NCBI GenBank assembly: GCA_016180645.1 | Contig: JACPAV010000016.1 | Span: forward strand, 62,001-126,000 | DNA from: Nitrospirota bacterium | GTDB lineage: Bacteria; JACPQY01 | Reading direction: 5' to 3' | Length of the DNA: 64,000 nt | Made by a program: the position numbers and the translations under genes | Part shown: positions 16,582-17,978 of the stretch, in pieces | Position numbering within the stretch: position 1 is the first letter of the stretch | Layout: every line of letters starts with the position of its first letter | Notes under the pieces: generated by a model | Databases searched by the model: none | What the model saw: the letters and a program-made list of their open reading frames with translations, nothing else | Told to the model about the DNA's origin: nothing

Positions 16582-17256
16582 ATGCAGACGGTAGGACCAC
16601 GCTCGGAGACGGTTGACCCTTCCGGCGGTACGCTCTTGCGCTCCGGCCTGCCGCGAATTCTCTGCGCGTGGCGCGCCACCGAGCCCGCGTATCACAAGGC
16701 GCGAACCACCCTCTTCGATGCAGGCTACTCCGTGCTCGAAGTCTGGGACCTCACCATGCTCCAGCGGGTCCTCCAGGAACGCAATTTCGATCTCCTCGTT
16801 TTCGATATCCGGCTTCCCGATGTTTCGTTCCCGCAGGTCGTTCAGATGACCGGGCACGGTGGGCGGACCATTCCGATCATTGTCGTTTCCGACCGGGCGA
16901 ACGCGGAATGGCGATGGTCCACCTTTGACGGCGGGGCGTACGAATACCTGGTCCTGCCCTCGGAAGAGCGGGAATTCCTCGACTGTGTGAACGATGCGCT
17001 TGGAACGGAGCGCTTCAAGTCCGACTTCCCGATGTTCGCCGGGGCATCCGCTTTGCCCGGGACCTTTCCCACCCCCCCCCCCGCCCCCCCCACCCCCGCC
17101 CCCCCCCCCCCCCCCCCCCCCCCCCCCCCCCACCTTCCCCCTCAAGGGGGGAAGGGACAAGAAGGAGTGCGCCTTACCTTCTTTCCCCCTCCCTTTCGAC
17201 GGGGGAGGGTCAGGGAGGGGGTGAACGCTTACCACCCGCCGACGCTCCTTCCCTGA
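16582..17256 (+). CDS. Response-regulator-like receiver protein, probably the 5' half of a frameshifted gene
   Basis: Start ATG 16582 (224 aa). Residues about 25-145 look like a receiver domain: ILCAWRATEPAYHKA, then LLVFDIRLPDVSF with Asp in the phosphoacceptor position, IPIIVVSDRAN, and AYEYLVLPSEE in place of the usual Lys-Pro switch region. The usual acidic pair after beta-1 is missing, so phosphorylation is doubtful. From about residue 160 the protein dissolves into Pro-rich sequence encoded by a 33-C homopolymer and a palindromic repeat, and then stops. The frame one base away continues through the repeat, without any stop, into the next gene at 17358. The two are probably one gene (receiver, Pro-rich linker, coiled coil, membrane span, LytR_C) broken by tract length. 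The start is moderately certain because no strong ribosome site is visible. Confidence 0.65.
   Translation: MQTVGPRSETVDPSGGTLLRSGLPRILCAWRATEPAYHKARTTLFDAGYSVLEVWDLTMLQRVLQERNFDLLVFDIRLPDVSFPQVVQMTGHGGRTIPIIVVSDRANAEWRWSTFDGGAYEYLVLPSEEREFLDCVNDALGTERFKSDFPMFAGASALPGTFPTPPPAPPTPAPPPPPPPPPPHLPPQGGKGQEGVRLTFFPPPFRRGRVREGVNAYHPPTLLP
17099..17131. repeat. Homopolymer of 33 cytosines
   Basis: An unbroken C33 run sits at the frame junction between the receiver reading frame and the downstream coiled-coil frame. It is either a slippage-prone tract that switches the fused product on and off or an assembly-length error. Confidence 0.9.
17132..17222. repeat. GC-rich palindromic repeat (copy 2 of 3)
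   Basis: The plus (coding) strand has CTTCCCCCTCAAGGGGGGAAG, a variable spacer, then CCCTCCC...CGACGGGGGAGGG, the same order as the coding strands at 9896 and 51883. In the frame of the downstream gene it reads PPSPSRGEG and then SPSLSTGEGQGGGE, matching copy 1 almost residue for residue. Confidence 0.8.
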
Positions 17257-17357
17257 GGGAGGTCGTTGCCAGCGTCAGACCTTTCCCACACAGTGCCCTG
17301 CCGATTCCGGCCGATCCCGCCCTGCCCCTCCCGGTCAGTCCAAAAGAAGCCGGCGAC

Positions 17358-17978
17358 ATGTTGACCATGCGCAAGGACATCAGCGCGACCAAGGAGCGGG
17401 AGCGGCAACTTCGCATCGAACTCGCAGCCAAGGAACGCATGATCAAGAAGATGGAACGTTTTGAGTCGATGGTGATCGAACTCCAATCCGAGAACGCCCA
17501 TCTCAAGGAGGCCGTCGCGCGGGTCCAGCAGGAATCCGTCGCCCCCACCTCCGGCCTGTCCCATGGAGAACAGGTCCATGGGAGTCGTACGATCCCGGCC
17601 GTGTTGATCCTCCTTCTCGTCTTCCTCGCAGGAGGATTCTATGTCTGGAAGAATGGCATCCCCGGCCGGAAGTCCGTCCGAACGGCGACCCCCACCGTGG
17701 CCCCGTCGCTCCCGACCGCCCGGATTTTTCATCCCACCGAACTCACGGACGTGGCCCTCGGCATGGCCGAAACCCTGTCGAACATGGGCGTGCAGGTCCA
17801 AGCCCTCGAGCCGCTGACCAACCCGGTGGCGCGCACCACCGTGTTCTACGCGCAGGGCAAAGAGGAGACGGCCCATTCCATCGCGGGCCGCCTCGGGCCG
17901 GATACGGACCTCCGCCCCAGGGACTGGCCCAGCGGGGCCGATCTGATCATCGTTCTGGGCGAGGACAGGCTGGAATAA
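17358..17978 (+). CDS. Coiled-coil, single-span protein with C-terminal LytR_C-like domain
   Basis: 206 aa from ATG 17358. Residues 8-60 are a charged coiled coil (KERERQLRIELAAKERMI), 77-93 a membrane span (AVLILLLVFLAGGFYVW) and about 110-206 a LytR_C-like domain (ALGMAETLSNMGVQVQAL, then GPDTDLRPRDWPSGADLIIV), found at the ends of LytR-CpsA-Psr and other envelope proteins. No ribosome site precedes the ATG and the frame is open upstream through the palindromic repeat, so it is probably the 3' half of the gene that starts at 16582. The likely topology is a cytoplasmic receiver and coiled coil with a periplasmic LytR_C domain. It may link polysaccharide assembly to the envelope; this is inferred from domain type and neighbours. 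Confidence 0.65.
   Translation: MLTMRKDISATKERERQLRIELAAKERMIKKMERFESMVIELQSENAHLKEAVARVQQESVAPTSGLSHGEQVHGSRTIPAVLILLLVFLAGGFYVWKNGIPGRKSVRTATPTVAPSLPTARIFHPTELTDVALGMAETLSNMGVQVQALEPLTNPVARTTVFYAQGKEETAHSIAGRLGPDTDLRPRDWPSGADLIIVLGEDRLE

Follow-up and report, generated by a model that had tools for sequence, protein, structure and literature searches.

A run of 33 C residues (C33) separates a receiver open reading frame (ORF) from a coiled-coil/LytR_C ORF in the window (the whole 64,000-nucleotide stretch analyzed here, from a Nitrospirota bacterium), and it occupies the position of the left-end C-run of a palindromic interspersed element. The two ORFs are probably parts of one gene that carries an element-derived, slippage-prone, and possibly mismeasured tract. 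We favor a single ancestral gene into which the element inserted, because seven of eight in-frame copies of the element use the frame of the LytR_C ORF. Two further observations support the one-gene reading: the frame favored by codon usage changes at the tract, and gene order is conserved from one side of it to the other. The likelihoods that we attach to the competing explanations overlap.

Direct counting placed C33 at positions 17099 to 17131, at the right end of a 60-base C-rich stretch (17072 to 17131, plus strand) that reads C11 G C8 A C5 G C33. Pattern searches of the host genome (a draft of 4.72 Mb in 65 contigs) returned 139 C or G runs of at least 10 bases, just 3 of which reach 14 or more (14, 14, and 33 bases); C33 is therefore an extreme outlier in this genome and not a chance run. 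The receiver frame, with codons starting at positions equal to 1 modulo 3, runs from an ATG at 16582 to a TGA at 17254 to 17256. The LytR_C frame (0 modulo 3) is free of stops from 16929 to 17978, and its first ATG is at 17358. These counts agree with a preliminary description of this DNA as to the C33 run at the junction, the neighboring frame that stays open through the palindromic repeat into the LytR_C gene, and the tract lengths that would restore one protein. That description had the receiver frame ending shortly after the run; the frame does reach a stop, but 125 bases on, through the whole repeat. Adding one base to the tract or removing two (C34 or C31) gives a single 465-aa frame. 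More generally, a C number of 1 modulo 3 fuses the receiver and LytR_C frames, 0 modulo 3, the assembled state, leaves the receiver with approximately 40 element-encoded residues and the stop at 17256, and 2 modulo 3 gives the receiver with a short tail that ends at 17224. From the tract to ATG 17358 there are approximately 75 codons without a stop; since we estimate that such an interval arises by chance about 1 time in 10 at the local G+C content, the open LytR_C frame by itself is a weak argument for one gene.

The receiver ORF as assembled (16582 to 17256, plus strand) encodes 224 aa and matches Response_reg at 34.4 bits (cutoff, 30.2). It is made up of a degenerate receiver domain, a proline run, and then the element-encoded residues. 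The phospho-acceptor Asp is kept (the Asp of VFDIRLPD aligns with it), the N-terminal acidic pair is absent (ILCAWRATEP is in its place), and so is the conserved Lys (LVLP where receivers have LVKP). Judging from this primary structure, ordinary phosphorylation of the domain is doubtful. The ORF at 17358 to 17978 (plus strand) is predicted to encode a coiled coil, a hydrophobic segment (TIPAVLILLLVFLAGGFYVW), and a LytR_C domain (25.4 bits; cutoff, 22.2). The coil is weakly GCN4-like, and ATG 17358 sits at its start.

Codon scoring, for which the remaining genes of the window served as the training set, favored frame 1 before the tract and frame 0 after it. The receiver scored +0.15 in frame 1, and in frame 0 the coil and LytR_C domain scored +0.19 and +0.24, respectively. 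The segment from 17262 to 17357, which in the LytR_C frame encodes, for example, the peptide PFPHSALPIPADPALPLPVSPK, was neutral in frame 0 (0.01), against −0.17 and −0.28 in the remaining frames; in the LytR_C frame, the score is clearly positive only from approximately 17310. On the basis of the lack of stops and the codon score, we assign positions 17233 to 17357 (plus strand), weakly, as a proline-rich linker that is a probable continuation in the LytR_C frame. The LytR_C gene had also been described as lacking a ribosome site. The site is indeed absent, but most genes that were called with confidence in the window lack one as well, the upstream ATPase and receiver genes among them, and we rejected this absence as evidence.

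The repeat next to the tract (17132 to 17232, plus strand) was recognized by repeat search and by aligning left ends; in this copy the C tract stands in place of the left terminal bases. The element is found at 29 places in the host genome and has terminal inverted repeats, and for an intact copy the fold is a single long hairpin (z = −7.5). It is a MITE-like interspersed element. Its left end reads CAGCACCCCCCATCCTCACCTTCCCCC. The C-run at this end was read in 24 copies and is C6 in 19 of them, with C4, C7 (L186), C8 (L192), C14 (L187, the same as L053), and C33 occurring once each. At the C14 copy (G000:C7:118741-118754), the left-end C-run has grown with the ATCCCAACCTTCCCCC context intact. 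The coincidence of C33 with the element's own C-run had been missed in the preliminary description. In the copy under study, the bases left of C33 are no longer recognizable as an element terminus; because of this, growth of the tract from the element's C-run is something that we infer, and a C-rich linker older than the element could be its origin instead. Sub-threshold mir-3718 noise was the only trace of a known RNA element at the locus, and this candidate was rejected.

Eight copies of the element are embedded in frame in long ORFs whose codons look coding both before and after the element. Of these, seven read PSPS(R/T/K)GEG, which is the frame of the LytR_C ORF here (PSPSRGEG...STGEGQGGGE), and the earlier statement that the repeat is read in the frame seen in other hosts therefore holds. 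One such copy lies in the window itself, at 9892 to 9987 on the minus strand (PSPSRGEG...STGEGAGGGEG), inside an ORF (7326 to 13094) for a 1,922-aa beta-propeller/PKD-type surface protein. This copy and six other places suggest that palindromic elements read in frame within genes form a family in this genome. No close relatives carrying the host genes of element copies were found. Rickettsia palindromic elements (RPEs) are known to insert in frame into genes (PMC10969869). Like RPEs and intragenic MITEs, the present element is a short palindrome (approximately 100 to 150 bp) with several in-frame copies in unrelated genes and a preferred reading frame among the intragenic copies. Its sequence and lineage are unrelated to those of RPEs, and this candidate mobile element has a left-end C-run of varying length.

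The left flank of the locus (15641 to 16492, plus strand) encodes an AAA ATPase (AAA_22, 2.3e-20), a relative of the XrtA/PEP-CTERM-associated ATPase, that scores 181.3 bits against TIGR03015, below the curated cutoff of 324.5. On the right are an HD-domain protein (18156 to 19316, plus strand; HD_5, 2.3e-17, and synteny), whose start codon is uncertain, a Wzz/BY-kinase of the exopolysaccharide chain-length/tyrosine autokinase type (19324 to 21483, plus strand; TIGR01007, 122.7 bits with a cutoff of 108; Wzz, 25.9), and purH downstream of it. Two further runs prone to slippage lie in this cluster, a T9 (15700 to 15708) inside the ATPase gene and a C10 (18300 to 18309) in the first, proline-rich part of the HD gene. 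An HD gene directly follows the ATPase gene in 8 of the 20 distant loci around the best ATPase homologues, and a polysaccharide-export protein or a Wzz/BY-kinase is often near these ATPase-HD loci. Since the ATPase and HD genes, between which the tract lies, have the same order in distant genomes, the sequences left and right of the tract belong together, and the join is real and not an assembly chimera. A chimeric assembly via a poly-C hub was thereby rejected.

By its gene content, the locus looks to be of the exopolysaccharide type. As in XrtA/PEP-CTERM exopolysaccharide loci (TIGR03015 ATPase and TIGR03018/TIGR01007 kinase), the ATPase, HD, and Wzz/BY-kinase genes are adjacent; unlike in those loci, the ATPase falls far below the TIGR03015 cutoff, and a receiver/LytR_C gene lies between the ATPase and HD genes, an arrangement seen only here among the loci examined. 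The polysaccharide half of the earlier label "polysaccharide regulator" is thus consistent with the neighborhood, and the regulator role is uncertain because the receiver is without the acidic pair and Lys.

We propose that a single ancestral gene encoded the receiver, a proline-rich linker, the coiled coil, a transmembrane segment, and LytR_C, and that its linker became the insertion site of a palindromic mobile element. The C-run at the left end of the element would then have expanded into a long homopolymer. A run of such length would slip at replication and be hard to measure, so that the assembled split would represent one of three phases of an unstable or mismeasured tract and no fixed gene boundary. 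The idea of one gene split by the tract, already put forward in the preliminary description, gains from the frame of the repeat, the switch in codon frame, and the gene order, but no homologue with the fused receiver/LytR_C architecture was found in the other genomes searched. Only two of the genomes compared are from the host phylum, and a search for a second strain with the receiver/LytR_C locus found none, which makes this a comparison of one assembly.

Two separate genes, or one that is permanently broken, with LytR_C starting at ATG 17358 and the receiver ending at 17256, are rather unlikely; such a split would be either the original design or what was left after the element broke an earlier fusion, two forms that share this standing. 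The position of the ATG at the coil start, the late onset of a clearly positive coding score, and the normality of missing ribosome sites in the window are in keeping with two genes. So are the four other LytR_C proteins of the same genome (G000 C28:26387, C28:782, C19:181109, and C15:79295), which have a hydrophobic N terminus, LytR_C, and then varied C-terminal regions, and in whose sequences no recognizable receiver was found. Against this, the receiver ORF would finish with approximately 40 repeat residues in the nonpreferred frame, whereas element copies inside genes normally are read in the other one. A −1 ribosomal frameshift or transcriptional slippage on the C-run, which would make both the receiver and the fusion from one mRNA with the DNA unchanged, is very unlikely. 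The preliminary description had overlooked that a −1 recoding event on the tract would join the receiver and LytR_C frames into the identical fusion. The direction fits (frame 1 to frame 0), a candidate stem starts within approximately 2 bases of the tract, and CCC-CCC tandem codons permit full re-pairing after a −1 shift. A slippery run followed by a stem, with ORFs that a −1 shift would fuse, is also what programmed frameshifting of the dnaX type uses, but the run here is 33 bases and not a heptamer, and the fold of the tract plus element does not stand out clearly from shuffles (z = −1.5). Nothing singles out a −1 ribosomal shift as the source of a fusion. As for transcriptional slippage, bacterial cases usually occur on A/T runs (PMC3711429), and no passage on slippage at C-runs was found in PMC1088944.

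The one-gene reading leaves two accounts of the tract length to be weighed. The gene may be intact in the organism, the assembler or the sequencing chemistry having set the wrong number of C residues. This reading, which the preliminary description had offered as its alternative to phase variation, is possible, if well short of probable, and at least as likely as selected phase variation. Short-read platforms err on homopolymers from 8-mers upward (PMC11140927). In comparable assemblies, a contig end is no more than 60 bases away at 21 of 36 places with at least 24 C residues, which suggests poly-G read artifacts or homopolymer/assembly breaks, and some of these runs share the stray A or G interruptions seen in the C33 stretch. 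Against an artifact, the tract is interior to a 132-kb contig whose gene order matches left and right of it, the same end of the element carries C14 and C8 in other, independent copies, and a G44 lies inside a 9.17-Mb single contig of another genome. Because interior long tracts exist, including this G44 and in-frame linker tracts, the tract may be real with an uncertain length. If it is an artifact, it is still a warning that genes in draft metagenome-type assemblies can be falsely split at long C tracts. Adaptive phase variation, a stronger version of the one-gene reading in which selected slipped-strand changes in the tract would toggle a full-length envelope protein on and off, is unlikely. 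A long C tract within a gene, one base out of frame, in an exopolysaccharide locus argues for it, and indels in this homopolymer do switch the downstream frame. Phase-variable genomes usually carry many homopolymer tracts, although this is not strictly required; here C33 is the only run longer than 14, an isolated tract with no set of contingency loci. The phase variation put forward as one option in the preliminary description is possible rather than established. An intragenic G/C run that sets the frame of downstream domains in a surface-polysaccharide type of locus is shared with the contingency loci of Campylobacter and Neisseria, but C33 exceeds their approximately 8 to 13 residues, and far exceeds the G9 to G10 typical of Campylobacter. 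It also falls at the same spot as the end of an interspersed element and may be accidental, and the single assembly gives one length and no mixture. In Campylobacter ORFs, much shorter G/C tracts of 8 to 11 have slippage rates of 1e-4 to 1.6e-3 per division, with a bias to deletion in tracts of at least 11 (PMC8355987); therefore C33, if real, should be unstable. Such instability is possible and differs from a selected switch, which we do not claim. It is quite unlikely that the element, spreading in frame through proteins with a seed C-run, has given an exopolysaccharide gene a working phase switch; the seed would let each insertion grow a frame-shifting homopolymer, in a host phylum that is barely sampled. 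If this is real, a mobile element would deliver slippage-prone tracts into proteins, and it would tie intragenic palindromic elements to homopolymer phase variation, both of which are already known.

Long C tracts also were seen in other genomes. Runs of C24 to C52 lie exactly at contig ends in G231 L147, L166, L171, L174, and L216 and in L155 to L157, L161, L165, and L173; in these public drafts they are probably sequencing or assembly artifacts. Within proline-coding linkers, long C tracts keep the frame in G062 and G006 but not in G161, and these cases speak for the one-gene reading. In the last of these genomes, which is unrelated, a C30 at position 1337 of L175 (G161:C8) lies in a proline-coding linker with a long ORF on each side, the two being in different frames; this closely parallels the C33 case. 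Another unrelated genome, G006, has five interior tracts of at least 24 C residues (L159, L168, L172, L215, and one more), including a C40 in L172 that is in frame ahead of a collagen-like repeat, and is more likely than the present case to show genuine long-tract phase variation.
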